In this document: piece after piece, positions 1 to 52,735 of the stretch
How positions within the stretch are numbered: position 1 is the stretch's first letter
Layout: every line of letters begins with the position of its first letter
DNA from: Arenicola marina
Lineage: Eukaryota > Annelida > Polychaeta > Arenicolidae
NCBI GenBank assembly: GCA_964019135.1
Contig: OZ025263.1
Span: 21,057,123-21,121,122 of the forward strand
Length of the DNA stretch: 64,000 nucleotides
Direction of reading: 5' to 3'
Made by a program: the position numbers and the translations under genes
Notes under the pieces: generated by a model
Database searches by the model: none
The model's input: only the letters and a program-made list of their open reading frames with translations
Told to the model about the DNA's origin: nothing

Positions 1-451
1 GTGGGACATTGACTTACGCGTAGTTCGGGTGGATGGCGTGGGACATTGACTTACGCGTAGTTCGGGTGGATGGCGTGGGACATTGACTTACGCGTAGTTC
101 GGGTGGATGGCGTGAGACATTGACTTACGCGTAGTTCGGGTGGTTGGCGTGGGACATTGACTTACGCGTAGTTCGGGTGGATGGCGTGGGACATTGACTT
201 ACGCGTAGTTCGGGTGGATGGCGTGGGACATTGACTTACGCGTAGTTCGGGTGGATGGCGTGGGACATTGACTTACGCGTAGTTCGGGCGGATGGCGTGG
301 GACATTGACTTACGCGTAGTTCGGGTGGATGGCGTGGGACATTGACTTACGCGTAGTTCGGGTGGATGGCGTGGGACATTGACTTACGCGTAGTTCGGGT
401 GGATGGCGTGGGACATTGACTTACGCGTAGTTCGGGTGGATGGCGTGGGAC
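1..451. repeat. 37-bp minisatellite spanning a DNPEP 5' splice site
   Basis: About 12 near-identical 37-bp units reach the window edge. On the minus strand each unit is 28 nt of the end of exon j (codons for SHAIHPNY) followed by 9 nt of intron, GTAAGTCAA. The exon body begins in the last unit, so the true exon end is itself one repeat. Confidence 0.97.
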
Positions 452-585: not shown

Positions 586-3500
586 CTACACCGCAAGAAA
601 TAACACCCCTTAAAGCAATATACTTACATGCGCCATCTTAGATATTTTACATTTTAGAATCAAGACTGAAAGTATCTCAAAATTATGATGCATATATGTT
701 TATATCTCCGAGAGTCTGTAAAACAACAATTTCAACATAAAATTATGCGGTTTATTTATATCGCGCGCGGACGTGATAGTGAGCCGCGGTTGACATCATA
801 CACAAAATAAAGGACAGCGAACAGGCGCGCAGGGATATAAAGCCGGCCACCAACTTCTGCTCCGGTGACCAAATTGCTTCTCTCCGAATAGCCCACAGGG
901 TTTCAGGATTTAAATTCAAGACATACTTATTTGACATGAGGAAGAGGTTGGTAATACAAAAAATTACAGAATATATATTGCTTTAATGTCACATACCACA
1001 CAGGCCATGAGCCCCGTGCACAGGCAACTTTACAGCGTGCAAGCACTTGACAAGGCTAACCAAGTGACAATCTGTCAACAGGCGTTGCGACGCGATATCA
1101 GCGGGTACTGTTTCAACAGGTACCACGTGATTAGGCTAACCACGTGACTTTCAACAGGCGTGGCGACGCGATATCAGCGGGTAACATTTCAACAGGTACC
1201 ACGTGACTCTAAACAGGCGTGGCGACGCGCTGTCAGCGGGTAACCTTTAGACAGGTACCACGTGACTAGGCTAACCACGTGACCTTTCAACAGGCGTGGC
1301 AACGCGCCGTCAGCGGGTTCACTGACCTCCTCGTTGTCGAAGAAACTCATCATCCGGATGTGGGTGTCGTTCTGGAGCGAGTCTCCGGCACAGGATGCCG
1401 TCAGCGCCTGGCCGCGAGGGGTAGAAACCACGTGTTCACATCATAAAACGGCAGGACATGGGCATAGAGGCGTCAGGAAAACTACTGTCATCATAGTAGG
1501 ACTTGGCGATACAGGCGTCAGGGAAACTACTGTCATCGTAGTAGGACTTGGCGATACAGGCGTCAGGGAAACTACTGTCATCGTAGTAGGACTTGGCGAT
1601 AGATGCGTCAAGAAACTACTGTCATCATAGTAGGACTTGGCGATAGAGGGGTCAAGGAAGCTACTGTCATCATAGTAGGACTTGGCGATAGATGTGTCAA
1701 AAAACTACTGTCATCATAGTAGGACTTGGCGATAGATGTGTCAAGAAACTACTGCCAGCATAGTAGGACTTGGCCATACAGGCGTCAGGGAAACTACTGT
1801 CATCGTAGTAGGACTTGGCGATAGATGCGTCAAGAAACTACTGTCATCATAGTAGGACTTGGCAATAGATGCGTCACAAAACTACTGTCATCATAGTAGG
1901 ACTTGGCGATAGAGGGGTCAAGGAAGCTACTGTCATCATAGTAGGACTTGGCGATAGATGTGTCAAAAAACTACTGTCATCATAGTAGGACTTGGCGATA
2001 GATGTGTCAAGAAACTACTGTCATCATAGTAGGACTTGGCCATACAGGCGTCAGGGAAACTACTGTCATCGTAGTAGGACTTGGCGATAGATGCGTCAAG
2101 AAACTACTGTCATCATAGTAGGACTTGGCAATAGATGCGTCACAAAACTACTGTCATCATAGTAGGACTTGGCTATACAGGCGTCAGGGAAACTACTGTC
2201 ATCATAGTAGGACTTGGCGATAGAGGGGTCAAGGAAGCTACTGTCATCATAGTAGGACTTGGCGATAGATGTGTCAAAAAACTACTGTCATCATAGTAGG
2301 ACTTGGCGATAGATGTGTCAAGAAACTACTGCCCGCATAGTAGGACTTGGCCATACAGGCGTCAGGGAAACTACTATTCTAGAACCACAAGCATCTGTGA
2401 CTCTTTGTGTAGACTATGATGAGTTGTGTGGTAATTTATAAGGTATTACCGGCGAGTTATTTGTAATAATGGAAACTTACTTGCAGCGATCAGATGATAT
2501 TCAAAGTGATCATGCCTCTGATTTGAGGAGAGTATACCAACATGAGCTAGTTTAAAACTTGGCTTAATGTACTGCTGAATTTAAATGTGTAGTTGTCCTG
2601 TGCGTACCTGCATGGCACAGTAGCAACTGTGAAGATTGTCCAGCCTCGGAGCAAAGATGAACTCTTCAAAAACACCTCCAATGGCCTGAGGAGATAAAAG
2701 ATATACTCCAGTAAATATATACGCTGAATAGCTAATATGCAATATATAAACTATGCATCAATGTCTGGGCTCTGATGCCATGTTTGAGCACAGCAAGGCT
2801 AGAGTTGGGCAAGGAATCGTTGGGGCAGCGAGAATCACAGCGTCAATCACACGTGGGGCTTGAACCCGCAACCTATTTGCTTGCAGTCGAATAAGCCATG
2901 AGGTCTGGGTACTTACAGCTGGCACGTGGTCACCCATAAGGTCTGGGTACTTACAGCCGGCACGTGGTCAGCCATGGGGTCTGGGTACTTACAGCTGGCA
3001 CGTGGTCAGCCATGGGGTCTGGGTACTTACAGCTGGCACGTGGTCAGCCATGAGGTCTGGGTACTTACAGCTGGCACGTGGTCAGCCATGAGGTCTGGGT
3101 ACTTACAGCTTGCACGTGGTCACCCATAAGGTCTGGGTACTTACAGCCGGCACGTGGTCAGCCATGGGGGCTGGGTACTTACAGCTGGCACGTGGTCAGC
3201 CATGGGGTCTGGGTACTTACAGCTGGCACGTGGTGAGCCATGAGGTCTGGGTACTCAAAGCTGGCACGTGGTCAGCCATGAGGTCTGGGTACTTACAGCC
3301 GGCACGTGGTCAGCCGTGGGGTCTGGGTACTTACAGCCGGCACGTGGTCAGCCATGAGGTCTGGGTACTTACAGCTGGCACGTGGTCAGTCATAGGGTCT
3401 GGGTACTTACAGCTAGCACGTGGTCAGCCATGGGGTCTGGGTACTTACAGCTGGCACGTGGTCAGCCAGACACAGCTCGAAGTCCAGGATCTGTTCCGGA

Positions 3501-6500
3501 TTCACACCCAGAGACTTGGAGATCAGATCAGACAACACCGGGTGGTGCTTTTTTTCCTGAAAGCAAAAAGCATTTAGTCACAAATTGACGCCGTCAGCCT
3601 TTATATATATGGACAAAGGGACCATTCTAAAACACCCTTTGGCGTCGAGAGGGCCCATCGGTCGGAACCTATAGTATGTCCCACTGACACACCCCCCACC
3701 ACTCATAGTGTACATCATTGGGTCATACTATATAGGTTTTGTGCAAATCTGGTACAAGAGATCATGTAAGAATGAAATGAACTGAACAGATGGTTTTTTC
3801 AGGCCTGTTTCGTCCACACGAGGGCTAAAATATGCCCCAGACTAGACATTAGACCGACCAGACCGGGGTTCGAACCAGGGACCTATTGATTGGCAGTCCA
3901 GTGTTCTGCCACTCGGAGTGAACCTCTCACCTGCTGGCACTGGTCTGGCACCTCATCATTGGAGGCCACGCCCCCCTCCAGCTTCTCCTGCACAGCGGTG
4001 GCCAGTACAGGGGTGCTGTAACACAGACACGCGTCAAGATGGTACATGGGTGCTGTAACACAGACACGCGTCAAGATGGTACATGGGTGCTGTAACACAG
4101 ACACGCGTCAAGATGGTACATGGGTGCTGTAACACAGACACGCGTCAAGATGGTACAGGGGTGCTGTAACACAGAAAAGCGTCAAGATGATACAGGGGTG
4201 CTGTAACACAGACACGCGTCAAGATGGTACATGGGTGCTGTAACACAGACACGCGTCAAGATGGTACAGAGGTGCTGTAACACAGAAACGCGTCAAGATG
4301 GTACAGGGGTGCTGTAACACAGACACGCGTCAAGATGGTACATGGGTGCTGCAACACACACGCGTCAAGATGGTACAGGGGTGCTGTAACACAGACACGC
4401 GTCGAGATAGTACAGGGGTGCTGTAACACAGACACGCGTCAAGATAGTACAGGAGTGCTGTAGCAGATACGGGTCAAGATAGTACAGGGGTGCTGTAACA
4501 CACACGCGTCAAGATAGTACAGGACTGCTGTAACACAGACACGCGTCAAGATAGTACAGGGGTGCTGTAACACAGACACGCGTCAAGATAGTACAGGAGT
4601 GCTGTAACACAGACACGCGTCAAGATAGTACAGGGGTGCTGTAGCAGACACGGGTCAAGATAGTACAGGGGTGCTGTAACACAGACACGCGTCAAGATAG
4701 TACAGGAGTGCTGTAGCAGACACGGGTCAAGATAGTACAGGGGTGCTGTAACACAGACACGCGTCAAGATAGTACAGGAGTGCTGTAACACAGACACGCG
4801 TCAAGATAGTACAGGGGTGCTGTAACACAGACACGCGTCAAGATAGTACAGGAGTGCTGTAACACAGACACGCGTCAAGATAGTACAGGAGTGCTGTAAC
4901 ACAGACACGCGTCAAGATAGTACAGGGGTGCTGTAGCAGACACGCGTCAAGATGGTACAGGGGTGCTGTAACACAGACACGCGTCAAGATGGTACATGGG
5001 TGCTGTAGCACAGACACGCGTCAAGATGCTAAAGGAGTGCTGTAACACAAACACGCGTCAAGATGGTACGACGCCACCATATATACTACTCACAATTTGC
5101 TAAGGATCACCTCTATGCAGAGATATCTAAGTGTATAACAGGCCACTGTGTAATTCTACTATAATACAAAGACGTTTACCTTTACCATGCATGGTGGCAC
5201 ACGAGTAACAGATTGGACACAGCTTAGGGAAGGTTTATCTGTATTTTTAAAAAATTGTGTGACGTCACGCCTTTGTCTTAAGTGTTCATTATCCAGAAGA
5301 ATGCACCGGAACAGACCTAGCCGTGCTTTATTAGCGCAACTGTGCGTTATTTAAATAAAGAACGACAAACAGCGCATTATCTTGATAAGGAACAGTTATT
5401 GTTAATATTGACTCACAAGTGTCACGGTGTAATCAGTCGAGCCGAGCTGAGCTGAAGTGAGGTTGCAAATTTCGTGACAGACAATGGAATGCATAAGTCA
5501 ATGTAAAGCCCTAGGGGGGTGGGGTGTATTAGGTCAGAACGTTCAAAATGCAGGAATATTTCACAGTTATCGATTGCATATATTTCGCGTGCCACCTACA
5601 AACGGGGGACCGTTTGACATGGGTCATGCCATTTCTACTGAAGGCGTCACATGTTTAATGATTCAGGATAAAGCCTATTACAAAAGACATGACTTATAGG
5701 CCTATGGATGATCTATTTTATGAGTAGAAGCGATAAATGCCTAATATTGCCCCAGGAAATTTAGACGGGATGACTTGACTCTTGTGTAGGGATTTAGAAA
5801 ACAAGACTTTCAAAATGTTTACTTCTCCCATACATCCCCCCCCCCCACCTGGGGCTTCACATTGACTTGTGCATTAGTTGATCGGTCGTTTTGTCATTTT
5901 AAGGCCAAACCGTTGTTTCCCTAATGCTCACTATTAGTCGTGCAGCGCATTTGATACAATAGTCGATTTCCTGTGTCCAAACATGAATGAACCACGCAAA
6001 TCATGAGCAGAACCAAAGCCTTGTTATAACAATTTTATAAGTACGTTAAGAACTCGCTGCTTTAAGTCGTCCTTTAACTAGTACATAGTAGAATTACACA
6101 GTCACCTGTTATACACTCAGATATCTCAGCATAGTTGGTTGGTTGGTTATTCAGGACGCTTTAACCACATTTGGTCATATCGCGTCAAGAGGAGAAGGAA
6201 GGGAGAGTGGAGTCATGTCCCCGGGGGTAACTCTCTACTCTTTACGAAAAAAGACATGTAATCTTTATCCTGCGACCACACAGACATGGCCACAGCGGGG
6301 CTCGAACCATCGATCCACGCGCCGTTAGGCTCTCAGGTGACCAGGGCCCTCAATGCGAGCGCTCTAGCCCACTGAGCTGTCGCGCCGGCCCCTCTCTGCA
6401 TAGAGGAGATCCTTAGCAAATCGTGAGTAGCATATATACGACTAACACAGCATGCCTTGAGTAAAAACCGAACAACAAACGAAAGTCGCTCTCTCACTGA

Positions 6501-9500
6501 AAACATTGTAAATATACAGCATAGGCTCTGTCCCCAGAATGTGTCTAGATATTCAGATTACGTCAGACGATAAACATTGAATTATTACTGCTGCATTTAA
6601 AGGGGGTAGAGACTGAAAGCGCCTTCTAGCGGAGGAGATGTACACCACTCACAGGTGGAGTTCTTAGTTGAATTCGAACTTGGGAAAAAACGAACGGAAC
6701 CAGAAATTGAAGTGGCTCTCTCAATAAAAACATTTTTGTCAATATGCAGCATAGGCTAAAGCTACAGAATATGTGTCTGGGTAGTCAGATTACGTCAGAC
6801 GATATACATTAAATTATTACCGCTACATTTTTCTGTTGTATAAACTGGACGGAGCTAGAGACCAAAGGCGCCGCCTGGCGGAGGAGATGTACACTACTCA
6901 CAGGTGGAGCTCCTTGTTGAATTCGAACTTGGTGGTCATGTCTCTGTTGAGGTGGATGGCCAGGTTGGGCACCCTCAGAATGGGTCTGTCGATGTGCAGC
7001 AAGCGGTGACTGATGCCAGTCTCTGTCTGCAAGGCCACGACAAACACGGCTTTATCAACAGCGCTTCAACCCATCTGTGCGTCATAGTCAAGGGTGTATT
7101 GCAAAACTGTACAAAGCTAAATCACCCTTAAGGTGTTTTTTCTGCGCCCAGCAGTCCTCATCTTGGAGATTCGATATCACTGCCCCTAATTACGGGGATT
7201 CGCGGGGATTCAGAGGGGGTATCCCCCCCCCTATATACATTGCACTGCTGTATTGCGTAACTGCTACTACAAAGATACGTTGCCTAGTGCACAGGGACCT
7301 ATTTCAGGAACGCAGTTTAGCCGACTACGGGGCTTAGTCGGCTAAAGTTACCATTTGAATGAATGGCGATTTTAGCCGACTAAATTCCGTAGCCGGCAAA
7401 TCTATGTGTGTGAAATAGACCCCTGTGCATTCGGCAATTAAAGCAGCTTTGTAGTAACAGTTATCTAGTACAGCCGCGGAATATAGGGGGGAGTGGGGAA
7501 TCCCCCCAAAATAGGGTAATATCGAATCTCCAAGATCAGGACTGCTCAAAACTGGGCGAAACCAAAAGCTTGAAGTCCCTGTCCACACCCGACACCCACT
7601 CATCTTGACCATGACGCGGCCGGCCAGCTTGAGGTCCCTGTCCACCCCCCACACCCCTCACCTTGACCATGACGCGGCCGGCCAGCTTGAGGCCCCTGTC
7701 CACCCCCCACACCCCCTTACCCCCTCACCTTGACCATGACGCGGCCGGCCAGCTTGAGGTCCCTGTCCACCCCCCACACCCCCTCACCTTGACCATGACG
7801 CGGCCGGCCAGCTTGAGGCCCCTGTCCACCCCCCTCACCCCCTCACCTTGACCATGACACGGCCGGCCAGCTTGAGGTCCCTGTCCACCCCCCACACCCC
7901 CTCACCTTGACCATGACGCGGCCGGCCAGCTTGAGGCCCCTGTCCACCCCCCTCACCCCCTCACCTTGACCATGACGCGGCCGGCCAGCTTGAGGCCCCT
8001 GTCCACCCCCCACACCCCCTCACCTTGACCATGACGCGGTCGGTCAGCTTGAGGTCCCTGTCCACCCCCCTCACCCCCTCACCTTGACCATGACGCGGCT
8101 GGCCAGCTTGAGGCCCCTGTCCACCCCCCACACCCCCTCACCTTGACCATGACGCGGCATGCCAGCTTGAGGTCCCTGTCCAACCCCGCCCCCCCAACAC
8201 CCCCTCACCTTGACCATGACGCGGCCGGCCAGCTTGAGGTACCTGTCCACCCCCCTCACCCCCTCACTTTGACCATGAAGCGGCCGGCCAGCTTGAGGCC
8301 CCTGTCCACCCCCCACAGCCCCTCACCCTGACCATGACGCGGCCGGCCAGCTTGAGGCCCCTGTCCACCCCCCTCACCCTGACCATGACGCGGTCGGCCA
8401 GCTTTAGGTCCCTGTCCAACCCCCCCCCCCCCCCCCCACACACACCCCCTCACCTTGACCATGACGCGGCCGGCCAGCTTTAGGTCCCTGTCCAACCCCC
8501 CCCCCCCCACACACACACCCCCTCACCTTGACCATGACGCGGCCGGCCAGCTTGAGGTCGCGGTCGAGCCACGTGTGCCAGGTGCCGCCGCCGTAGCATT
8601 CCACTCCCACCTGGACGTAGCCCTGCTTCACTCGCCGAGATACTGGCTTCACCTGCAAGTAATGGCACAAATAAAGGCTTCCATCCGGTTAAAGTAAAAT
8701 ATTCTGTAATTTTTTGTATTACCAACCCTATTCTCCATGTCAAATAAGTATATTATGTCTGGAATTTAAATCCTAAAAGCCTGTGTCTCAGCACAGGTCG
8801 GATCAATCGGCCTAGACCGGCATTCATTTACCCCAGGGTATCAGCCAGAATTTGTTTTCAATCAGCCTTTCCAACTCTCCAAATTTAGGCTGGTAAAAAA
8901 CAAGTTTGGGGTATACAGACAACATGGCGCCAGGTTCTCGCATTCTGAGTATGCAATTTATAATTCAATAAACAGCAGCCGTTCTTAGCGGCCGTCATAT
9001 AGCACTGTGACCGCTATGGTTTTCTTCTGGATATCGTGACCAAAAGGCCTTTTTTTAGGCGGGTAAATTACAGCAGCTGAGTGCCCGCCTTCCTGAAAAA
9101 CTGCCTACCAAAAATGAAACTGAAACTGGACAAGTGGGTCTCTGGCTAATACCCTGGCGTAACCTGCTTAGTTTTACGTAAACCTCCTCATTCTGGACAC
9201 TTTGTCGAGCGGTTATCATGGCTCACAATATATATATATATATATTCTCTATAGCGGGGTATTTTCTAAATTAGGATAGTGCCAAAATTATACTGAATAT
9301 AATTTCAGGATCATGAACACCACCACGGAACGTTCTTTGTCCGTAACTTACGTAACTATAATGACTACCGACCCTGGCCTTTCATGGCTTTGTCCGTAAC
9401 TTACGTAATTATAATGACTACCGACCCTGTCCTTTCATGGCTTTGTCCGTAACTTACGTAACTATAATGACTACCGACCCTGGCCTTTCATGGCTCGGTA

Positions 9501-12249: not shown

Positions 12250-12335
12250 ATGTATGTTAGGTTTAGGGTTAGGTTAGGATTACGTTAGGGTTAGGGTTAG
12301 GTTTGGGTTTGTATTAGGGTTCTGGTTAGGGTTAG
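12250..12335. repeat. Interstitial TTAGGG-like repeat
   Basis: Degenerate run of GGGTTA/TTAGGTT motifs, about 85 bp. It resembles metazoan telomeric repeats but is short and internal. Confidence 0.7.
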
Positions 12336-15380: not shown

Positions 15381-15591
15381 TAAATAGTTCTTGATTATTG
15401 AATTGATTCGAATTGAGTTGACTTACATTGAAGTGAAGGATGTTGACTGGTCAGTGGTTCAAGGTTGAAGTGCCGGTAGTTGTTGTCGTCTCGAAGTTGG
15501 GTCACATGGTCATTAGTACTGTTATCTTCCGTGTGTAGTCGCTGCATGCAGGTGAGTATTAATTATACGATAGCCGTGTGGTGTCGCTGCA
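15381..15591 (-). repeat. 3' LTR of the gypsy-type element
   Basis: 211 bp partner of 20379-20589, preceded on the element's strand by the polypurine tract. Confidence 0.93.
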
Positions 15592-15626
15592 TCCTCCTTC
15601 TCATATAATATAATCCTGCGTCCGTA

Positions 15627-36561: not shown

Positions 36562-36607
<46 letters not shown>

Positions 36608-36688: not shown

Positions 36689-36726
<38 letters not shown>

Positions 36727-36820: not shown

Positions 36821-36871
<51 letters not shown>

Positions 36872-36952
36872 TGGTAAAGGTGAGGGTGAGGGTGGGGGAG
36901 AGGGTGAGGGTGAGGGTGAGGGTGGGGGTCATGGTGAGAGTGAGGGTCATGC

Positions 36953-36990
<38 letters not shown>

Positions 36991-37084
36991 AGGGTGAAGG
37001 TGATGGTAAAGGTGAGGGTGAGGGTGGGGGAGAGGGTGAGGGTGAGGGTGAGGGTGAGGGTCATGGTGAGAGTGAGGGTCATGC

Positions 37085-37129
<45 letters not shown>

Positions 37130-43100: not shown

Positions 43101-46100
43101 TGAAGATCAAAGGCAGAATAGAACTAGATGCTCAAAAACAAATAAATAAACTACGTGATCAGTGGTCCCAGGATAGAGAAAACTTAATTAAAAGCAATGA
43201 AGCAATGAAATCTAAATTTGAGAGACAGTCAGCCGACATGAACAGGATGATTGATAAATTACAGGAAGAAATAAAATACCTCAAGGCTTCCCGTGTTAAA
43301 TCTCATGAAGACTCTTCCCATTCCATGGTGGACAGTCTAGCACCTGGTGGTGTGTATGGATTGGGGAAAGTAACCAAGAGTGATGTAGACAATAAAACCC
43401 AAGTTTTCCCACATATGGAACAACAATCTCAGAAATTCTCTGAATCTGAGTCAGACCAATCCACTCGTAGAAAGAGAATTGAAGGGCCACCTCCTCCAAA
43501 GATGGCCACGTTTGATGGAAGGGAAGACTGGAAACCATTTGAAGTCCAATTTAGAAGAATGGCTCAGAGATATGCTTGGGACAATATGACCCAATTGGAT
43601 AAAATAGTAGAATCACTCCGAGATAGAGCACTAAAGTTTTTTTGTTCTCAGTCCCATCCGGTGCAAAATGATATTCATCTTCTTTTTGAAAAATTGGCCA
43701 CCAGATTTGGCAAGAAAGATCCCCCTTCCTCTCTGCGTCGACAATTGCAATATCTGAAACAAACTTTAGAAGAACCCCTTGATGAATTTGCAGATAGAGT
43801 CCTAGAACTGGCAACTGATGGGTTTCCAAATGCGCCTGAAGAGATCATACAGGTCATGGCAATAGACTCTTTCTTTCGAGGATGCATAGACAAGAAAGCA
43901 GCTTTAACTGCTTTAGAGAAAAACCCTTCCACATTGGATGAAGCTGTTCAGATGGTGAAATCGTCCATTCACAATCATCGCATGATTGGGGGTTTTAGAT
44001 CTGAAATCAGGAGAGTCACATTTGAAAATGATAATATCCCATTGGATATTGAAAATTACCAGATCAGGAAACCTAATGCTGAGAAACAAAACCACATCGC
44101 AGAAAATCTCCAGAAAGTTAAAGACCCAAAAGATGGTAACTGGGAGTCCGAAATTGCCCAAGTTAAGGCTGATTTGGCTAACACTAATCAACAAGTTGCA
44201 CAGATTTTGCAGATGTTGAAAAAACAGTTTCGCCCCAGACCACCATCACCTCCTGCTGGATCTAAGACACCCCCCAAATGTTACCGTTGTGGATCTCCTA
44301 CTCATTTTGCACGAGACTGCAGCAAAGACGGTTACCGTTCGCGGTCTCCTTCTCCTATACAAGAACCTAGAGTAGAGATCACTCCCTCTTTAAACTCTTA
44401 GAGGCTCGGGTTGTAGGCCGTTACTCGAGCTATCACCCAGGCCAACCACCTCAAAACACCAAACACAGGCTTCCCTATCATCCTGTCAGGCCAACTGATC
44501 CTCTCTCAGAGAAGAGTTCTCCTAACAGCGTACCGGAAGATCTGGTTGCTAATAGTGAATCCTCTTCTCCCTATCATCCTGTCAGGCCACCTGATCCTCT
44601 CTTGGCGGAGAATTCTGCTAACTGCGTACCGGATGTTCTGGTTGCTGATAGTTGTTCCTCTCCTCCCTATCATCCTGTCAGACCACCTGATCCCCTCTCA
44701 GGGGAGAGTTTTCCTAATACTGTACCGAATGTTCTGTCAGACTACCGTATCGTCTCTGGGAAGGGAGTTCTAAAAACTGCGTGCTGATGTTCTGGTTGCT
44801 GATAGTGAGCCCTCCCTATCATCCTGTTAGTCCATCTAATCCGCACTTAGAGGAGAATTATCCAAATAGCACACTGGAAGTTCTGGTTGCTCATAGTGAG
44901 TCTTCCCCTTCTCCCCTTCATTCTGTCAGGCCATCTAATCCGCACTTAGAGGATAATTCTCCTAATAAGCAAACCGGATGTTCTGGTTGCTCATAGTGAG
45001 TCTTCCCCTTCTCCATATCATCCTGCTGGCCTCCTAATTCAGGGGCGTGCTATCCTACTTTCATACCGGATGTTCTGATTGAGGATACAGAGTGTCATGT
45101 GAAGGAGAACTGATTTATTTGCCCCTATGTCATCAAGGTTTAAGTATATTAGAGTTCTCCATGTACAAAGTTTAGGAACAGTCAGATTCTTTAAGTTTAA
45201 TACATACATATACATATAACAGCGAGAAAATTATGTAAATTGTCGACACGGCGGCCTAAGCCACAGTGACGAGTTTGCCATCTGCTAGTATTAATGATCT
45301 TAGCTATCACTGGCAATACTGCAAACCAGTTCTGCTACATTTTTAAAAGTAATTATTACAAATGAACAGGCTCGGATGTTTCTGAACCTTACATTTGATC
45401 ACTGTATATTCAGCACTATAGTTAAGTATATGTAATCCTTGATATTAAACATATCAGGTGGACCGGTTCAGATGCTTCTGATCCTTTCGTCTCACGTCTA
45501 TATTTATGTATGCCCTGATCTATATTACATATGTATTGACGTGACGTTGTAAATATTAAGGTAATATAAATTCATGTTAACAGATTGACAAGTATATGTA
45601 GGTATGTGCCGGGAACGAAGTGGTTCGGATGCTTCTGATCCTGTCGTCTCACGTCAATATTTATGTATACCATAATCTATATTACATATGTATTGCTCGA
45701 ATAGCCACCTTATTATAATAATATTATGAGGGCACGGAAAATGATGTATATTGGCTCATAATAAGGCTATTTAGTTATACCCGTAGACTTAATTATTTGT
45801 TATTGATGAATAAGACCAAAAAAACATATGACGGGGGAGAGTGTAGTATCGGGCAAAAGTGAGGTCAATTGGGGGGACCATGAGCGCCCTCTAACTTGTA
45901 GATGCGGCCCCTGGCGGATGTGACTGGAAGCGGACGCACCCCCTAGCGAGAGGGACTGTAGGCCGGCAGATTGGCACGGAACGGCAAAGAGCACGGCGGG
46001 ACCTTCAAGTTCTGTTGTGTCAGCCGGCAGCCATCTCACAACTCCAAATACGACTGGAACTTACAACCAGTGAGTAAAACCTCAGAATACCATTTATACA

Positions 46101-49100
46101 ACAGTATGAAAACCACATGCTGGGGAATCCCAAGTTAGAAGCCAAAACGAGGCAGGCTTGAAATCGAGGTTCACGATTGGTGGCCAGGTATGCAAATTAT
46201 GATCTCACTTAGACATGCGCACTTTCGGTGAAAATGCGGAAGGTAAACAAACTGAGGTGTACCGAAGGCGAATGGAGGCCATTTAGAGTTTAGTCGAAAT
46301 TAAGTAAATAGGCTTTTGAGAAAAATGGTGCTTTGTTCACTGAACGGAGTTATTTTATATATCAATATCTTGACAAGTGGTGGATGGATGGTGTTGGTTT
46401 GTTTTGTTTCTGGGCACGTAAACTTTCGGAATGGATTGGATGGTGAGCCGTTGGACCCGAGATAAGCCGGTGCCATTGAGGCATGAGGCTCTGAGTGGGG
46501 TCACCAAGTGCTGGGCTACATTCACCCAGTACATGGATGGCCTTTCCTCTTTGTGTTTTATGTTAAATGTTTTGTGTGTACAGCCACAATGGATTATCTG
46601 TGTGAGTGTTATAAGCTTAAGTGTCATTTTATTTGATTTAATCTCTGTTGGTGTGACAGAAAGCTCCCAGGTTATATTTACCTCTTCATTTATAAATTCC
46701 AGTTGGATGAATAATTCAGCCTTAGCTTGGTAATGACATTGGCATTGCATTATGATTTTAAAGTTCTCAGTCTGAATGTAAGAGGACTTGGTAGTAGGAA
46801 GAAAAGAGCAGGTCTTCTCAGATGGCTGAAATGTAAACAGGCCGATATTGTATTTTTACAAGAAACTCATTTGACTAAGGAAAGTGAAAACATTTTCACA
46901 AAAGAATGGGAAGGTGATATATATTTTTCTCATGGGACCTCCCAAAGTCGTGGTGTGGCAATTTTGATTAAAAGAGATCTAGAATTTACATTAGATGATG
47001 CAGTGTATAATTCTTCAATTTTTTAAAGGTAAAAGTGCAAGACTTATTGGTCAATTTGATAAATGTATATGCACCAAACAAAGAGGGAGAACAGATAGCA
47101 TTTTATAATAATTTCAAGTCTATCATAAGAAAATATGGTACAGACATATCAGTAGTAGGGGGAGATTTCAATCTTATATTTAATCCAGAATTAGAGAAGA
47201 AAGGAGGAATTAAGGAAGTTAGAAAATCCAGTGAAATAATGGAAGAGGTATTAGCCCAAAATGACTTACAAGATATATGGAGATTAAGAAATCCAGATGT
47301 GAAAAGATATACTTGGAGGCAAAACAAACCAAGAATTCAGTGTAGGCTTGATTACTTCTTTATATCCGATCAACTTCATGACAATGTAATAGATACAGAT
47401 ACTATACCATCTGTCCATTCGGATCACTCTGCAATTAGTATCCATTTTCAGTCTGTCAAGAATGATTTACGGGGAAGAGGTTATTGGAAACTAAATTCAT
47501 CTCTGATAGAGGATGAAGATTATGTACATGATCTCAAAATAGAAAAGGCGAAATGGCTGGATGAAATCACCTCTTTATCAGATCCTCGTATTAGATGGGA
47601 ATATCTCAAATATAAAATCAGACAATTCTCTATGAAGAAAAGTTCACAGAAAAGGAGACTGAGAGAACAAAGCGAGAAGAAATTAAATGAACAATTAGAA
47701 TTTGCACAAAAAAAATATGAGGAGTGTGAGTTAGAAGAGGATATTAGGAAGTATGAAGAATATTTAGAGCAAGTCAAAAGAGAGCTACTGGAGTTAGAAG
47801 AATATGTCACCAAAGGTATCATGATTAGATCAAGGATGCAATGGCATGAAGAAGGAGAGAAAGGAACTAAGTATTTTTGGGGATTGGAAAAGAGCAAGGG
47901 GGTTAAAAAATGTATCAGAAAACTTCAGAAACCAGATAACAGCGTAACAACAAATATGAAAGAAATTCTTGATATGGAAATGGAATTTTACACCGATTTA
48001 TATTCGACGAAGATAAGCAAGAGTGATGAGAATATAAAGGCTTATTTGGAAGATGTAGAAACTCCAAAGTTATCTGAACTACAGAAACAAACACTAGATG
48101 CCCCATTAACCACTGAAGAGTGTTGGGAGACATTAAGAACATTTAAGAATTTTAAAAGTCCAGGTAATGATGGAATAACATCTGAAATTTTGGTCTGAGT
48201 TTAGTGTCCACATAATGGAGTCCTTTAATGCATCTCTGGAGTATGGAGAACTTGGATCCTCCCAAGTACAAGCTGTTATCACCTTATAGGAATAAAAACA
48301 GACTACTTCTCAAAAACTGGCGACCTATATCTTTATTAAATGTTGATTACAAAATAGCATCGAAAACATTAGCGAGAAGGCTGATTGATATTCTCCCTGA
48401 TATAATACACAATAACCAAGCAGGCTATGTAAAAGGTTGATTTATTGGGCAAAACATTAGAACAGTTATTGATATTTTGCAATATACCAAACTAGAAGAC
48501 CTATCTGGCCTTCTTTTAGCAGTGGATTTTGAAAAAGCCTTTGACTCACTGGAATGGTCATTCATGTTTAAAGTGCTTGAAAAATTCAACTTTGGTCCAG
48601 TTTTTCTAAAGTGGTTACAGATATTTTACACAAACGCCCAAAGTTGTACAATTAATAATGGATTAACTTCAGGATATTTTAAGATCACGCGCGGTGTGCG
48701 GCAAGGGGACCCTTTATCGCCCTATTTGTTTATATTGTGCGCAGAGATCATGGCCATAAAAATCAAGCAGGATAGGAACATTAAAGGGGTAGAAATAAAT
48801 GGAGAAGAGATAAAATTGGTCCAGTTCGCCGATGATGCAAATGGGCTTCTAGCTGATAAAAACTCTGCAAAACATTTCCTGAAGCAAATAGAAGAATTTG
48901 GGCTTTATAGTGAACTACGGATAAACGAAGAAAAAACTGAAGCTATGTGGCTGGGCAAAGATCGGAATAATTTATCTAAACCATTAGGAATCTCTTGGCC
49001 AGATAAACCAATCAGAGTCCTGGGAATTTATATCTCTTATGATGCAAAACTAAATGAAGATCTCAATATAAAAGAAAAGCTAGCTAAAGTAAAACGCACA

Positions 49101-52100
49101 ATTAACAGCTGGAAGGGAAGACGTTTAACATTATTAGGTAAAATACAGATAGTAAAGTCGCATATTCTGTTTTCAATACTCCATGTCAATGTTAACCCAT
49201 TCACAGCAATTTGAAAAGGATGTAAATAGGCTACTCTTCTCCTTCATCTGGAATGGAAAGCATGAACGGTTAAAAAGGGACACATTGGTAAAAAAACATA
49301 GAAGATGGAGGGCTACTAGCGCCCCATCTTAAATCAGTCATACTGACCTCTCGCATCCAGTGGATAAAACGATATTATTTTGGGGAAGAAAGCTCATGGA
49401 AAACACTTTGGAAATATCAGATGAAGAGGCTATGTCCGATACCTAACCTTTTGTTTTGCTGTAATTTTGACATCTGTTGGTTTGAAAGATTAGGAATAGA
49501 TCCGTTTTATCTTGAAACAATGAGGGCATGTTCAATGTTACAGAAAAACAAACCTAGGGAAAATATTATGGATCAAACTGTTTGGTATAATAGAAATTTG
49601 AAATTAAAAACGTTCTTTTGTCCAGATTTATATAAGGCCGGTATACACAAAATAAAAGACCTGTTCGATGATTTAAATGTGCTCTTGCCATTTAACAAAA
49701 TGAAAGAAAGAGGTATCAGAAACAAAAGCTTCCTATCATGGTACACCATAGCGCAAGCCGCGCAATACGCTGTAAAAAATGAGTTGCACGGGGAAGAGGT
49801 GCCCGATATTTTACATTTTATTCTACATTTTGTTTACAAGGAGAATGTTTATCAACTGGAAAAGACTGGTAGTAAGATCATTTATTATTGTATTAGAGAT
49901 AATTTTGTTGGGGGAAATGTGGTCAAACCTAAATGTTGTAAGCACACAGACGGAGATCTAGATTATTCTAATATCTATAAGCGGAACTTTCAATTGTTAT
50001 CAGACACAGCGAGTAGGGTGTTTCAATATAAATTTTTAAACGACTGTCTTGTAAATAATTATTGGCTTAGAATATGGAAACTTCAAACCATGGATACCTG
50101 CACGTTTTGTGGTAAGAATGTTGAAAATATTGTGCACTTATTTTGGAATTGTGTAGAACTACAGAAGTTCTGGAGCGCTGTGGAAAATTGGTTTAAAGTT
50201 GCATTTCGAGTTCTTTCCCGCCAAAACTAAGCCTAGGCGAAATTTATGTCAAAATTTGCAGAACACTCGACTGTTTCATTCTATAAATTCAGAAACCTGA
50301 TAAACATCGCCGTTTCGGCTGTGGTGTGGCAAACGTGTCTATCCCGGTACACCACAGAACTCGGTCGCGGCACTCCTACTTATACCAAAGCATCGCGAAG
50401 CACACAAACTGATGACGTTTACTACTAAAATGAAAACTTGTGGTAAATTGATATCACGGGCAAGGCTAAGAGACACTATTTGGCAGTCTGGTATGGGTGG
50501 AGTATAGATAACAGAAGTCTTGAATGATTCAAGGACTGATTCTTATATGTATTTTGACCTCATTAGTTTAGGCGGGAAAGAGCTCGACATGCAACTTTAA
50601 ATATAAAAGGCTGCAAGTCCGAATCAGTAAATCTCTGATATTGTATGGGTCCATTGAAGCTACCGATTACGTAAATATCACTCTGGTTACTGCCAAAAGG
50701 TTCATTCAAAAGAAGAGGGATAAGGGGGAGAAATTAATATTTGAAGGTTTCATCAGGTTTATGAAAGATTATATCAATCTAGATTTCCGCAGACAAATAA
50801 ATAAATAAGTAGATCTAAATTGGCTGTTTTGTATGAACTTATCTGGAAGAGATTAATCCTTTGAGGTTGTTGTTTTTTGTATTGTCTTGTACTGTTTTTG
50901 TAACACTTTTTTTTTCTTGTCCTATTGTTTAGTGATGTTGAAATGATGTATTGTCTTTGTCTTGTGATTGTATTTTGTATATTTCAATGAAAAACAAAAC
51001 AAACAAAAAACTTAAATTCAAGACATAATATACTTATTTGCCATGGAGAAGAGGTTGGTGATACACAAATTACAGAACATATTCCTCTAAATGATGGATT
51101 AGGACGATGAATGGATAAAACATTCCCAGATTACGACGATGAATGGGTGAGACATGCCCCAGATGCAGGTGATGAATGGATGAGACATGCCCCAGATGCA
51201 GGTGATGAATGGATGAGACATGCCCCAGATTAGGACGACGAACGGATGAAACATTCCCAGATTACGACGATGAATGGGTGAGACATGCCCCAGATTAGGT
51301 CCATCCGGACCACGTGGCGTATGTGGGGGTGCATCTTAATCACGTATTGTATTAGTCCGTAGTGCCTGAAATGAGATTATTACCTCCCATCAAAGTAATC
51401 AATGTGTCACATGTGCCTCTATCGTACTGTGGAAAGCGGACTCGTCGGATGCAAGGAGGGAGGGGGGCAGGTGGGTTGGGGCGGGGACACTCTCGCTCTA
51501 TCAGTCAAAGCCATCATCTGTTAAGCACCTGCCTCCCCCTCCCCACAGTATACCACCCTCCCCCAACCCGTATCCACTATCAATTGATAGTATATCAGAG
51601 GATACCTTGAAAGTATCTAACCTTGGGTCCCATATGGCAAAAAAAACGATTGATATTATATAGTTGTTGTGACATATGCGACGAAATTAGCCATACCATA
51701 TACCTTGAAGTGCGCCCAAGACTCGATTACCATGGTGCGGTGGTCCATGCAGAGGCTGCCGTGCCAACTTTTGCAAGCCATTTCTTTTTTTTGTTTGTTA
51801 CTACATTAACTTAGATTATAGCCACAGAGCCCTTGGGGGGTGACGTCACGCTGACGTCACGCTGGCCATTCACATACGTCATGACGCTTTTGTAAATACG
51901 GGTTTTATTTGTATTGTATGACTCAAATGAAAGAGAAGGAGGTTTGTCCCCGTAGAATGAATCCCTCGTTCAAGTAACAACATGAACAAAAACCGAGGAA
52001 GTCCTACTTTTCAAAATCGACGGCAGTATTGGTGTTTACATAAAAATGTCGTCCCCCACCCCCACCCCCTCTCGCTGCAAATCCTTGTACTCCCTACACC

Positions 52101-52735
52101 TTAATAGAACTTTGACCTTGACCTGTTTCTATATCGCCTCAGTCATAAACAGAGTGAAGTTACTGTTCTTGATCATAGTGTCTGTATTACAGCCTGTACT
52201 GTACCTCAAGCATGTTGTATGTATAGTGTCTGTATTACAGCCCGTACTGTACCTCCAGCAGGTTGTATGTATAGTGTCTGTATTACAGCGTGTACTGTAC
52301 CTCCAGCATGTTGCATGTATAGTGTCTGTATTACAGCCTGTACTGTACCTCCAGCAGGTTGTATGTATAGTGTCTGTATTACAGCCTGTACTGTACTTCC
52401 AACAGGTTGAAGTCACAGTTTAAATGTTTAGTGCGGGCCTTCGTATTGCATCCTGTACTGTACATCCAACAGGTTGAAGTCACAGTTTATATGTTTAGTG
52501 TGGGCCTTTGTATTGCAGCTTGTACTGTACCTCCAACAGGTTGAAGTCACAGTTTGTATGTTTAGTGTGGGCCTTTGTATTGCATCCTGTACTGTACCTC
52601 CAGCAGGTTGAAGTAGGCTGCCGCGTCCGCCACCACCTCTGCCTGGTAGGAGAAGGTTGGCCCCAGGATCATCAGCTTGACGGGAGGCTCGGCCACGAGG
52701 TCCATGAAGGCCTTCACAGACTGCCCCACGCTCTC
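23149..52735 (-). CDS. GABA-B-receptor-like class C GPCR, fifteen 3' exons
   Basis: Plasma-membrane G-protein-coupled receptor of the metabotropic GABA-receptor type. Minus-strand exons 52598-52735, 39978-40148, 39226-39327, 38627-38695, 38171-38392, 35526-35765, 34746-34809, 34013-34096, 33570-33720, 27456-27588, 26314-26421, 25785-25907, 25126-25225, 24394-24632 and 23149-23361 join in frame to 2157 nt (718 residues and a stop). The first eight exons are part of the venus-flytrap ligand domain; exons 9-14 hold seven membrane segments with the hallmarks KLSSPRINNMIAIGC, SMFSKTWRVH, LYAYKGLLLIFGIFFAWETR and ALNDSKMIGICVYNV. The signal peptide and start of the ligand domain lie upstream of 52735 and were not found. 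I cannot assign it to subunit 1, subunit 2 or a lineage-specific paralogue; the last exon shows no obvious long coiled coil. Confidence 0.93.
23790..24425. repeat. ~93-bp minisatellite spanning a receptor 5' splice site
   Basis: Six to seven units. On the minus strand each contains CTGGTCTTCGGGCAGAAG|GT, the end of exon 14 with its donor, then about 55 bp of intron with TTCCTAAACCCTGGTCACG. Some units have decayed (CTGGTCGTCCGGCAGAAT) and lost the donor. Confidence 0.93.
24394..24632 (-). CDS. Receptor exon 14 (fifth to seventh membrane segments)
   Basis: 239 nt. Acceptor CTCCAG|GA, donor CAGAAG|GTGGGT. Encodes LLLIFGIFFAWETRKVRIEA, LNDSKMIGICVYNVMVMSVI and the last helix ending TLTLVFGQK. 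Exon end and donor are repeated in the array 23790-24425. Confidence 0.95.
25126..25225 (-). CDS. Receptor exon 13 (second extracellular loop and start of fifth segment)
   Basis: 100 nt: YDKQNEGLILQPLVAV, CTSPHMLYWTGSLYAYK, then one base of Gly. Acceptor TTTCAG|TAC. The donor is AAAG|GCGAGT, a GC-type site; reading straight on gives an immediate stop, while joining to 24632 restores LYAYKGLLLIFG. Confidence 0.93.
25545..25765. repeat. Degenerate short repeat rich in TGACGTCA
   Basis: Units of about 8-11 bp (GTGATGGC, GTTATGAC, GTGATGACGTCAC) starting ~20 bp inside the intron from the exon 12 donor. Several perfect CRE-like TGACGTCA palindromes. Confidence 0.8.
25785..25907 (-). CDS. Receptor exon 12 (fourth membrane segment)
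   Basis: 123 nt, 41 codons: IVKDMHLFAIVVGLLTVD, TGVLLAWTIIDRHYITSV, ALTPE. Acceptor TACCAG|ATC, donor CCGGAG|GTGAGA. Confidence 0.95.
26314..26421 (-). CDS. Receptor exon 11 (third membrane segment)
   Basis: 108 nt, 36 codons: IQVWTLVYGFTFAFGSMFSK then TWRVHVLFTNKKLQKK. SMFSKTWRVH is a family signature at the cytoplasmic end of this helix. Donor AAGAAG|GTAGGC. Confidence 0.95.
26636..26905. repeat. 22-23-bp intronic minisatellite
   Basis: About 11 units of TGAGGTAGAGTATAGTGTCT plus ATA. Intronic, no splice site included. Confidence 0.9.
27296..27405 (-). pseudogene. Duplicated 3' part of receptor exon 10
   Basis: 149 bp downstream of the working exon end; keeps the codons for CALSYVSVILMGLG(N)VLPKS and ARGTWLCQ with an open frame, but the donor is GTCAAT instead of GTTAGT, and the 5' part of the exon (KLSSPRINN) is missing. 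CCCCTAG before it could act as a weak acceptor. It could be a cryptic or alternative exon, or a dead duplicate. Confidence 0.85.
27456..27588 (-). CDS. Receptor exon 10 (second membrane segment)
   Basis: 133 nt. Acceptor TTGCAG|GTT, donor TGTCAG|GTTAGT. Encodes LVKLSSPRINNMIAIGCALS, YVSVILMGLGDVLPKS and ARGTWLCQ; KLSSPxxNN is diagnostic of GABA-B-type receptors. A second, shorter copy lies 149 bp away at 27296-27405. Confidence 0.95.
27615..28985. other. Intronic sequence without recognised features
   Basis: Part of the 6-kb intron between exons 9 and 10. Short open frames at 28050-28527 do not resemble a family I know; possibly old transposon sequence. Confidence 0.35.
28990..33590. repeat. 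51-bp minisatellite (about 90 units) spanning a receptor 5' splice site
   Basis: 4.6 kb. On the minus strand each unit is GCTACAGACACACCAG (end of exon 9) followed by GTAATAGG and 27 more intron bases. Units differ by a few substitutions and one-base insertions (CCCGGG variant). From about 31850 to 33050 a five-unit block marked by TTTATCCCACTG recurs about every 256 bp. Confidence 0.98.
33570..33720 (-). CDS. Receptor exon 9 (first membrane segment)
   Basis: 151 nt. Acceptor TCCCAG|GTG, donor CACCAG|GTAATA. Encodes a short linker, then YTLYVTVCVVSGVGLVYTVL ahead of AVMFNIGYRHTR. Its last 16 nt and donor are the unit of the array 28990-33590. Confidence 0.93.
34013..34096 (-). CDS. Receptor exon 8 (end of ligand domain)
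   Basis: 84 nt: GVGVPVAFYDSVKQELAWN then PQTSLKFA. Acceptor ACACCAG|GGG, donor GCCG|GTATGT. Phases join both neighbours. Confidence 0.9.
34163..34310 (+). repeat. tRNA-derived SINE-like sequence (low confidence)
   Basis: A box B-like GGGTTTGCGCCC stretch followed by a CTGGGGCATAGTTCATCCA body resembling, on the opposite strand, the one near 3830. No clear tail. Confidence 0.35.
34746..34809 (-). CDS. Receptor exon 7 (ligand domain)
   Basis: 64 nt: GHISFDENGDRNSKVV then VSQMQ. Matches the family G-V-F-x-x-x-G-D-R segment. Acceptor TTACAG|GGT, donor CAAG|GTAACT. Confidence 0.9.
35526..35765 (-). CDS. Receptor exon 6 (ligand domain)
   Basis: 240 nt, 80 codons. Acceptor CTCACAG|ACC, donor ATGTCG|GTGAGT. 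Encodes FTNAMDAVWAGAMALNNS (family: YAYDGIWVIAKTL) and FTYDDAEMAAIFF. The acceptor's pyrimidine tract merges into the hexamer array 35767-37230. Confidence 0.92.
35767..37230. repeat. GGTGAG hexamer array abutting a receptor 3' splice site
   Basis: About 240 hexamers with a higher-order period near 130 bp marked by GGTCATGGTGAGAGTGAG and GGTGATGGTAAAGGTGAG. On the minus strand it is a CTCACC pyrimidine tract running into CCCCTCACAG|ACC, the acceptor of exon 6. Open frames across it are artefacts of its multiple-of-three period. Confidence 0.95.
37330..38130. repeat. 38-bp intronic minisatellite
   Basis: About 20 units of GGTCTGGTAATGCAACTGAA plus CGGTGGTATTGGAACAAA. It ends about 40 bp from the exon 5 donor at 38171 and does not include it. 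Confidence 0.93.
38171..38392 (-). CDS. Receptor exon 5 (ligand domain)
   Basis: 222 nt, 74 codons. Acceptor CCACAG|GTG, donor GGATAC|GTGAGT. Encodes VYQLGLYGPRYQLLHWSG, then EDGCTTAQLLEAVEGLMYF; corresponds to the YGSKYQWIIPGWY and AMEGYIGV regions of GABA-B receptors. Confidence 0.9.
38627..38695 (-). CDS. Receptor exon 4 (ligand domain)
   Basis: 69 nt, 23 codons: DSGAKIILLFAADLTKE then SRLYCR. Acceptor CTGCAG|GAC, donor CCGG|GTGAGT. Confidence 0.88.
38718..38763. other. Two adjacent hairpins
   Basis: ATGGACGAGGT and ACCTCGTCCAT pair around a TAAGT loop, immediately followed by TGTACATGTTAAGTACATGT, a second palindrome with a related centre. Located just outside the exon 4 acceptor (minus sense upstream). 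Confidence 0.75.
38764..39225. other. Intron 3 of the receptor, partly G-rich
   Basis: Contains a G-run near 39090-39120 but no recognised repeat or exon. Confidence 0.4.
39226..39327 (-). CDS. Receptor exon 3 (ligand domain)
   Basis: 102 nt, 34 codons. Acceptor TCACAG|ACG, donor ATTAAG|GTAGGT. Encodes TSNAMQALLDKNDFTTL and STTYSSDPAAQIKQIK. Confidence 0.88.
39978..40148 (-). CDS. Receptor exon 2 (ligand domain)
   Basis: 171 nt, 57 codons. Acceptor TTTCAG|ATA, donor ATACCG|GTAAGC. Encodes IGYATTSPILSDKSIYP, FGRTIESTVLHNPAI and LRFFNWTKVAKI; the ATTSPILSDK...YP motif and FNWTKVA correspond to family-wide features. Confidence 0.93.
40167..40440 (+). repeat. Interspersed repeat family R, copy split by a LINE (5' part)
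   Basis: Matches 611-880 closely (ACTTACATGCGCCATCTTAG, AGTCTGTAAAACAACAATTT, GCGAACAGGCGCGCAGGG). Begins about 20 bp upstream (minus sense) of the exon 2 acceptor. Its 3' part reappears at 51011-51095. Confidence 0.85.
40450..41275 (+). pseudogene. LINE ORF1 remnant, split by a MITE
   Basis: Frames give RKENIKILGLAEKK, then after a one-base slip GEDLKEEIQVFIKGRLKLD and RVRIHPTTENAW; after the MITE, AWSWDGKVFF continues. Resembles the RNA-binding ORF1 protein of L1-type elements. Confidence 0.75.
40816..41170. mobile_element. MITE with ~54-bp terminal inverted repeats (Mutator-like)
   Basis: Left end GGTACATCGTTATAGCGGAA (from 40817) is inverted at the right end (to 41170), and pairing continues through GAAACTGGGTGAAAAGTA. 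Flanked by CCTGGTCTTG at 40806-40815 and 41171-41180, a 9-10-bp duplication typical of Mutator-type elements. The interior has no transposase. Confidence 0.9.
41181..41975. other. LINE spacer or unclassified insert
   Basis: After the end of ORF1 (about 41275), AT-rich non-coding sequence up to the LTR element. It may be LINE inter-ORF sequence or an older insertion; I cannot tell. Confidence 0.4.
41976..42237 (+). repeat. 5' LTR of the gag-only element
   Basis: 262 bp, TGTAGTATCGGGC to TTATACAACA. Differs from the 3' LTR by T/G in GGATGT(T/G)ACTGG. Confidence 0.93.
42719..44401 (+). CDS. Gag-like protein with N-terminal helix-hairpin-helix, one in-frame stop
   Basis: A single frame of 561 codons interrupted once by TAA at 43076-43078. 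Residues 1-45 (NINFATLEELQTLKGIGLNR, AIISLRDDK) resemble the ComEA-type helix-hairpin-helix DNA-binding fold. Residues ~100-190 are Glu/Lys/Gln-rich, likely coiled coil. A retrotransposon capsid-like region (FDGREDWKPFEVQFRRM to LDEFADRVLELA) follows, then a CX2CX4HX4C knuckle CYRCGSPTHFARDC at about residue 521. The stop may be suppressed, a point mutation, or separate two proteins; the next ATG in frame is at 43097. Confidence 0.88.
44402..45110 (+). repeat. ~110-bp repeats downstream of gag
   Basis: Five to six degenerate copies of CTATCATCCTGTCAGGCCA...GGATGTTCTGGTTGCT. Open frames in it read PYHPVRPPDPL repeats, so it may once have encoded a Pro-rich C-terminal extension. Confidence 0.8.
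45842..46103 (+). repeat. 3' LTR of the gag-only element
   Basis: Second copy of the 262-bp LTR, preceded by the polypurine tract. Confidence 0.93.
46733..47026 (+). pseudogene. LINE ORF2, endonuclease N-terminal part
   Basis: Frame encoding FKVLSLNVRGLGSRKKRAGL and DIVFLQETHL, the start of the AP-type endonuclease (Asn and Glu metal-site motifs). It stops at 47026 through a frameshift and continues at 47035. Confidence 0.88.
47035..48198 (+). pseudogene. LINE ORF2, endonuclease C-terminal part and linker
   Basis: 387 codons. LINVYAPNKEGE, VVGGDFNLIFNPE and SVHSDHSAISI are the remaining endonuclease motifs (catalytic Asp/Asn and the final Asp-His). A charged coiled-coil-like linker leads to KSPGNDGITSEIL, the start of reverse transcriptase, where the frame is lost. 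Confidence 0.9.
48228..49214 (+). pseudogene. LINE ORF2, reverse transcriptase core
   Basis: Two stretches split by a TGA at 48438-48440: NWRPISLLNVDYKIASK to NNQAGYVKG, then LLLAVDFEKAFDSLEW, GVRQGDPLSPYLFI and QFADDANG. The catalytic FADD is intact. Confidence 0.9.
49421..50230 (+). pseudogene. LINE ORF2, C-terminal region
   Basis: 269 codons ending in CTFCGKNVENIVHLFWNC, a Cys/His motif common at the C-terminus of L1/Tx1-type proteins. Connected to RT through a frame containing FSFIWNGKHERLKRD (49205-49330). Confidence 0.85.
51011..51095 (+). repeat. Interspersed repeat family R, copy split by a LINE (3' part)
   Basis: Contains CTTAAATTCAAGACATAATA, CTTATTTGCCATGGAGAAGA and ACAAATTACAGAACAT, the end of the family. 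Separated from the 5' part by the 10.5-kb nested insertion. Confidence 0.8.
51100..51298. repeat. ~31-bp tandem repeat
   Basis: About six units of GATGAATGGATGAGACATGC plus CCCAGAT and variants. In the large receptor intron; no splice site. Confidence 0.85.
52175..52612. repeat. 48- and 67-bp minisatellite spanning a receptor 5' splice site
   Basis: Two unit types side by side. On the minus strand both contain CAACCTGCTGGAG|GTACAG (end of exon 1 with donor). The 48-bp type (52175-52395) keeps 13 exon bases, the 67-bp type (52396-52612) keeps 17 and has a different intron part. Confidence 0.96.
52598..52735 (-). CDS. Receptor exon 1 of 15 (ligand domain)
   Basis: 138 nt, 46 codons, phase 0 to 0. 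Acceptor CTACAG|GAG, donor CTGGAG|GTACAG. Encodes ESVGQSVKAFMDLVAEPP, VKLMILGPTFSYQAEVV and ADAAAYFNLLE, the first lobe strand-helix unit of the ligand domain. Its end is the unit of the array 52175-52612. Confidence 0.9.

Follow-up and report, generated by a model that had tools for sequence, protein, structure and literature searches.

The question raised by this part of the Arenicola marina genome is why so many of the 5' splice sites (donors) of two neighbouring genes lie inside tandem repeats, and whether some process aims such repeats at donor regions. The window, i.e. the whole stretch of 64,000 nucleotides that was analysed, is situated on a 38.4-Mb contig of the 867-Mb genome, and much of it is occupied by DNPEP (aspartyl aminopeptidase) and by a GABA-B-type receptor gene. 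Both genes are on the minus strand, as are all exons and arrays to which window coordinates are given below for these genes. The reading that we favour, with a probability of roughly one half, is that the repeats are locally born minisatellites of the "mirage" type known from amphioxus, which are tolerated by choice of the first donor, in a genome with a very high rate of array birth. This reading starts from what is observed in these two genes, namely the arrays and their anatomy, the gene models, and the asymmetry between donors and acceptors.

The left flank adds K, L2 and M to the DNPEP exons A to J of the window, while the receptor consists of exon 1 in the right flank, followed by g1 and by g3 to g16. 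When joined by hand, the exons form a single uninterrupted frame for DNPEP, and likewise for the receptor. The DNPEP part aligns with solved DNPEP structures over residues 2-348 of 348 (E 2e-142) and its best match is the DNPEP of Capitella (71%); the receptor aligns with GABA-B subunits over residues 5-672 of 718 (E 2e-112). Spliced alignment with a purpose-written aligner recovered all 12 DNPEP introns with the Capitella protein, 11 of 12 with homologue P0010, in which the first junction is missing and the chain begins at exon B, and again 12 of 12 with homologue P0028, but with a different donor for exon F. Hemichordate receptors recovered 12 of the 15 receptor donors, with local support that is weak for some of them. 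The receptor donors at 81152, 38171 and 24394 were placed solely by the open frame and splice signals, and exon 1 was recognised by its open frame and its resemblance to the N-terminal region of the hemichordate receptors. A candidate exon at 51.3 kb was dropped, since the frame is preserved when g1 is joined directly to g3. On the strength of open frames and homologue alignments (for 24394 and 81152, of frame and splice signals) the exons bordered by arrays are real and conserved. In total, 27 donors and 28 acceptors were examined, and 24 of the donors (10 + 14 for the two genes) are in the window. Examples of donors without duplication are those of DNPEP exons B and A (10028-10116 and 10743-10821, placed by frame and homologue alignment) and of receptor exon g14 (25126-25225), where the donor GCGAGT opens a GC-AG intron (window 25113-25126) that was recovered with all three hemichordate homologues.

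The preliminary description had counted six window donors in arrays and three more in exactly two copies, and these counts were reproduced: Tandem Repeats Finder places the donors at 425, 3449, 8527, 24394, 33570 and 52598 in arrays, and self-comparison finds two copies at 9765, 6902 and 27456. In DNPEP, the donor of exon J (425-585, donor GTAAGTCA at the low end, placed by frame and homologue alignment) lies in a 37-bp minisatellite (1-453; 29 bp of exon and 8 bp of intron per unit) that extends left to position -1988 and, seen from the flanks, has about 66 copies in all. Exon G (3449-3556, placed by the same means) ends in a 38-bp minisatellite (2894-3468; 20 bp of exon and 18 bp of intron), and the exon D donor at 8527 is covered by a 59-bp minisatellite whose unit is 73 bp beside the exon (7567-8559). 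In the receptor, a 92-bp minisatellite (23821-24425) covers the g15 donor at 24394, a junction drawn from frame and splice signals that spliced alignment with hemichordate receptors did not recover; a 51-bp minisatellite of about 90 copies (28989-33585; 16 bp of exon and 35 bp of intron) covers the g10 donor at 33570; and a 48/67-bp minisatellite (52175-52614) covers the g1 donor at 52598. Outside the window, in the right flank, an array at 80510-81172, whose unit is 35/105 bp, covers the end of receptor exon 1 and its donor at 81152. The two-copy forms comprise the end of exon E with its donor at 6902 (two spaced copies, offset 249 bp, 6607-6932), the end of exon g11 with its donor at 27456 (offset 149 bp, 27286-27549), and a degenerate duplication at the exon C donor 9765 (9686-9796, 77% identity), which was picked up by local search but not by stricter repeat searches.

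In the six window arrays the exon contributes 16-33 bp to the unit. As judged from the consensus units and from the aligned units of three arrays, units are alike within an array and unlike between loci, and each of them is made of the end of its own exon, the donor and the start of the intron. Since the unit holds the end of its own exon, each array was born in place; the earlier claim of local and independent origin stands. Arrays are a classic source of misassembly and one could suspect that the assembly itself has created the pattern. We regard this as extremely improbable, since the unit sequences are gene-specific, the two-copy forms have diverged (77-89% identity), and short arrays are also found in otherwise unique sequence, e.g. 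the 20-bp array of the dynein piece L036 described below.

Donors are not the only gene borders concerned. Tandem Repeats Finder also confirmed the acceptor and stop-codon versions that had been noticed in the window: a 37-bp minisatellite of about 29 copies (4004-5069) covers the acceptor of DNPEP exon F at 4015 (12 bp of exon and 25 bp of intron), and a 16-bp minisatellite (22813-23157) covers the TGA stop codon of the receptor, whose last exon is at 23149-23361. In addition, the edge of an AGGGTG-rich low-complexity array (35779-37222) matches across the acceptor of exon g7 at 35765. A second stop-codon case was seen in a random stretch, where the stop codon of a sodium/calcium exchanger lies inside a 42-bp array (L021:4031-4449).

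Are donors really hit more often than other positions? If units of at least 14 bp are counted, tandem arrays account for 38% of the sequence in random stretches (180 kb) and for 33% of that in the window plus flanks; two of the random stretches, L018 and L031 (10 kb each), are one array from end to end. With so much of the sampled sequence in arrays, raw overlap is a poor guide. We used instead a measure in which only first-copy positions enter, so that each array is counted once, and a position is scored when a copy follows within 2.5 kb. On this measure the two genes give a background of 5.9% (38,462 intron positions) and the random stretches one of 5.6% (113,463 positions). The intron background leaves out the block at 40.18-51.0 kb, in which retroelements were recognised by eye; it was 5.1% with this block and 5.7% without it, and became 5.9% with the final exon 1 donor. 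By eye, the window contains LTR-retroelement-like sequence with flanking direct repeats and gag/pol-like text (15400-20600 and 41980-46100) and reverse-transcriptase-like open text that probably represents LINE remnants (46700-50900 and 58600-60550). It also holds a dispersed repeat at 5250-5700 (46 matches, the query among them, in a genome search with 5100-5700) and a degenerate GTTAGG/TTAGGG-like interstitial repeat at 12256-12335.

Against the 5.9% background, a tandem copy follows downstream in the case of 9 of 27 donors (binomial p 1.5e-5; 10 of 27 and p 1.7e-6 if the degenerate 9765 is included), in a test made in the same region that had first drawn attention to the pattern. Acceptors are duplicated in 2 of 28 cases (p 0.53 against background), and the two kinds of site differ (Fisher p 0.020, or 0.0095 with 9765). 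When the donor set was shifted circularly along the collapsed genes, none of 1133 shifts reached the observed fraction. Recurrence of 30-mers placed on the junction gives the same picture, with 8 of 26 donors, 1 of 26 acceptors and, in addition, the stop codon. A duplication within 50 bp on the intron side, for which the background is 6.5% (taken from 32,139 points at a distance of over 150 bp from any exon), is found at 12 of 27 donors (p 4e-8) and at 5 of 28 acceptors (p 0.03), the difference between them having a p of 0.044. In the positional profiles, donors are duplicated in 10 of 27 cases at +20 bp and in 9 of 27 at 0, acceptors in 5 of 28 at 60 bp, 2 of 28 at 0 and 0 of 28 ten bp inside the exon. 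Duplication near exons is thus raised on both sides, but the junction itself is often crossed at donors and seldom at acceptors.

The excess in these two genes might have arisen by chance combined with the choice of region: in an array-rich genome some genes will show several donor-spanning arrays, and such a region was picked. The 38% of random sequence in arrays speaks for this reading; the circular shifts speak against it, and so does receptor exon 1, which lies outside the window and shows the same pattern. A further test used donors that were not chosen for the pattern, 23 in number: 5 from dynein, 15 from random stretches and 3 from the flanks of DNPEP and the receptor. Three pieces of dynein heavy chain genes were taken solely because dynein exons stand close together there. 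Few exons were found in the random stretches by codon usage and Pfam; most of their donors come from ab initio exons, all 14 of which were kept, doubtful ones included, and the count also took in NCKX donor b, NCKX acceptors b and c and the UTP25 acceptor.

Strict spanning was found at 1 of 3 flank donors (receptor exon 1), at 1 of 15 random-stretch donors (L016, 21-bp unit) and, when 4 bp were required on both sides, at 0 of 5 dynein donors. Pooled, this makes 2 of 23 (95% interval 1-28%) with a background of 5.7% (p 0.38). The preliminary description had proposed a process that targets donor regions, to be examined by comparing donors with acceptors and intron positions. Within the two genes the comparison came out as it expected, donors exceeding both acceptors and intron points, but among the unselected donors strict spanning does not rise above background, and the targeting of donors is therefore not established. 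The window rate of 9 of 24 exceeds the unselected rate (p 0.036; p 0.072 for 8 of 24 without 9765), which is the direction expected when a region has been chosen for its pattern.

The dynein genes give a different impression. A tandem duplication begins within 27 bp of all five dynein donors, which again argues against chance and region choice, and in piece L036 a 20-bp unit in five copies starts with the donor GTGAGT itself. The same script found a near duplication at 0 of 5 dynein acceptors (p 0.008 against the donors), although it missed one at L035, where inspection by eye shows the acceptor within 1.9 copies of a 33-bp repeat, at the edge of the piece; a sixth acceptor, in L034, showed by eye no duplication within 150 bp. 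The intron before this dynein exon carries a 31-bp array of 29 copies (L034:3361-4267) that ends about 160 bp from the acceptor. In the random-stretch exons, a near-donor duplication was present in only 1 of 15 cases. Taken together, 7 of the 23 unselected donors have the start of a duplication in the 50 bp that follow them, against a background of 6.5% (p 0.0005), on a distance measure that was devised after the dynein sequences had been seen, with the background computed afterwards by the same script. By this measure 2 or 3 of 26 unselected acceptors are hit, and the difference from donors is not significant (p 0.06-0.16). Better supported than targeting of the donor is a broader statement, namely that the 5' ends of introns are enriched in tandem arrays, which in some cases take in the donor as well. 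Weighing both sides, we consider chance with region choice an unlikely, if serious, account of the whole pattern.

It is worth asking whether the bias can be seen in the genome as a whole. The donor word MAGGTRAGT occurs singly 47,279 times, as compared to 26,180 for the reversed control, twice in register 8,769 times (control 2,858) and three times in register 6,295 times (control 1,920); for GTAAGT three times in register the counts are 68,005 and 43,631. Runs of MAGGTRAGT, taken as the twice count minus the three-times count, number 2,474 versus 938, or 6.9% versus 4.2% per word outside runs, a 1.6-fold excess. However, run counts also differ between the strands, 882 versus 1592 for the donor word (1.8-fold) and 622 versus 316 for the control (2.0-fold). 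The genome-wide excess of the donor word hence leans towards donors but is no larger than the scatter between strands, and we take it as a lean and not as evidence. How noisy counts of this kind are can be seen in sampled sequence, where hexamers repeated three times in register range from 0 to 139 among unrelated permutations, with GTAAGT at 23, GTGAGT at 110 and GATAGT at 139. None of 8 strong donor words in 284 kb lies inside an array. Strong donor motifs are not enriched in random array units either (1 of 59 at a score of at least 5, 1.9 expected). The last two results favour chance, although the motif test is insensitive, as it finds only 2 of 32 in the window and flanks, where 7 arrays carry donors.

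A further explanation is a mutational process aimed at the start of the intron, such as co-transcriptional R-loops, pausing of U1 or polymerase, or replication slippage at the border. It would account for the donor excess over the intron background in the two genes, for the near-donor duplications among the unselected donors, and for the position of the founder edges, most of which lie in a zone reaching from about 33 bp on the exon side of the border to 27 bp on the intron side (an exception being g11, with 94 bp); the higher share of runs among donor words than among reversed words points the same way. Yet this last excess stays within the strand scatter, acceptors and stop codons are struck too, and neither donor score nor GC content separates hit from unhit donors (p 0.17 each). 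As a full explanation, we find an aimed process rather improbable.

How, then, could the genes put up with these arrays? If the first decoy were used instead of the true donor, the result would be a frameshift, an in-frame stop or both in all 10 duplicated cases. The decoys have not been purged: 199 of 202 recognisable ones keep GT or GC, a count that favours GT, since the search seed contains GT and the exon C decoy was placed by a string containing it. GT is kept in 65 of 65 aligned units at 425 and in 89 of 89 at 33570, while in a simple walk only two thirds of the six copies at 24394 keep it. One might speculate that decoy donors are useful, e.g. as U1 snRNP sites that guard long introns from premature polyadenylation, and are kept by selection. 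The invariant GT at 425 and 33570 would agree with this, but the same conservation follows from homogenisation of young arrays, in which many further columns are just as invariant, and the losses at 24394 do not fit; we judge useful decoys to be very improbable.

If the gene models are right, the first of many near-identical donors must be chosen. That the nearest copy would break the frame fits a choice of donor by exon definition; where the flanking introns are large, the splice sites closest to each other across the exon are chosen, according to the consulted part of PMC9225289. After collapsing of repeats, introns with duplicated donors are longer than the others (median 924 versus 410 bp, p 0.0045) and so are the exons (p 0.004). 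Both comparisons are post hoc and cover 27 introns, including two very long ones (12 and 28 kb) in parts of which transposon-like sequence was recognised by eye; for the seven arrays alone, the difference in non-repeat intron length has a p of 0.065. Longer collapsed introns are what one would expect if exon definition protects duplicated donors.

The reading we favour, mirage-type minisatellites tolerated through first-donor choice, can be put together as follows. A short segment straddling the 3' end of the exon (35-92 bp in the arrays) would be duplicated in tandem and, in many cases, would then expand into the intron by a mechanism that we can only infer. The copy belonging to the coding exon would stay under selection and the remaining copies would become intron. 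The donor used would be the one nearest to the exon's own acceptor, by exon definition. Acceptors would fare differently, since a copied donor follows the true site, while a copied acceptor would lie upstream and appear in the transcript earlier than the true one. In addition, the branch point and the polypyrimidine tract are situated at the 3' ends of introns. Exon definition and transcription order together would thus allow tolerance at donors and make crossing rare at acceptors. Such a selective filter, combined with a high birth rate of arrays, may let arrays accumulate where introns begin, the donor being included in some of them. Tolerance alone, however, predicts that donors are duplicated at the intron background and not above it. 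To account for the excess, one has to invoke either more frequent births at intron starts, which the dynein donors favour, or, for part of it, an effect of how the region was chosen, which the random-stretch exons favour.

A stronger version, which we put forward tentatively, is that the 5' ends of introns are genome-wide minisatellite nurseries in this annelid lineage: births at or across donors would be far commoner than elsewhere and would feed intron growth, leaving thousands of junctions with dozens of competing, near-identical 5' splice sites of which only the first may win. If the pattern held throughout the genome, an animal phylum far from amphioxus would have evolved the same border minisatellites, the birth of minisatellites would be a force that shapes intron ends and intron length, and the genome would offer natural experiments on how one 5' splice site is picked when as many as dozens of nearly identical ones follow it. 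Should the donor bias turn out to reflect only where one looked, the tolerance of repeats can still be studied in a genome in which readable genes are surrounded by arrays that take up more than one third of the bases sampled.

It remains to compare these arrays with known systems, on the basis of the portions of the cited reports that we consulted. Variable internal tandem repeats in human segmental duplications (PMC2812944) are alike in being minisatellites with a mean unit of 30 bp, some of them at an exon-intron boundary, that can alter gene structure. They lengthen exons or create introns in young paralogues, whereas the conserved frame of the annelid genes requires the first donor. Intron gain through tandem duplication of an AG/GT proto-splice site (PMC2891723, also PMC3087553) likewise duplicates splice-site sequence; here, by contrast, no new intron was seen and the repeats lie at introns that are mostly supported by homologue alignments. 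The minisatellites in intron 1 of earthworm metallothionein genes (PMC12783039) are also annelid and also intronic, but the consulted text describes no exon-intron border in their units. Border minisatellites in annelids are described in none of the reports consulted, which come from the open-access full-text literature and thus leave most subscription journals outside.

The closest counterpart is found in amphioxus. An amphioxus origin of the sequence itself was rejected: for the COX1 encoded on the mitochondrial contig, the best of 7,999 scored candidates is that of Pilargis wolfi (Phyllodocida, 92%), followed mostly by other annelids, which puts the genome in or near the phyllodocid annelids, and the best DNPEP match is likewise from an annelid, Capitella. 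The preliminary description had brought up the name "mirages", and the correspondence with the elements described in PMC3087553 holds: mirages are recognised by tandem units in which an exon-intron border of their gene is included, and such units are present at six donors and one acceptor in the window, and at receptor exon 1. Border minisatellites of amphioxus were described in Adh3 (cited in PMC3087553) and in troponin C and PGBD5 (PMC3902484), and splicing was reported to be undisturbed (PMC3087553, PMC3902484). Length polymorphism and somatic instability are known for the amphioxus elements, while the annelid arrays are known here from one assembly. Both systems have donor and acceptor versions of a unit that includes the exon-intron border, with lengths that differ by junction and units that are homogenised within the array. 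The differences, as far as the consulted portions of these reports go, are that the present arrays occur in an annelid, affect 7 of the 27 donors of two neighbouring genes, reach about 90 copies, are found in a genome in which arrays make up such a large part of a random sample, and extend to stop codons as well.
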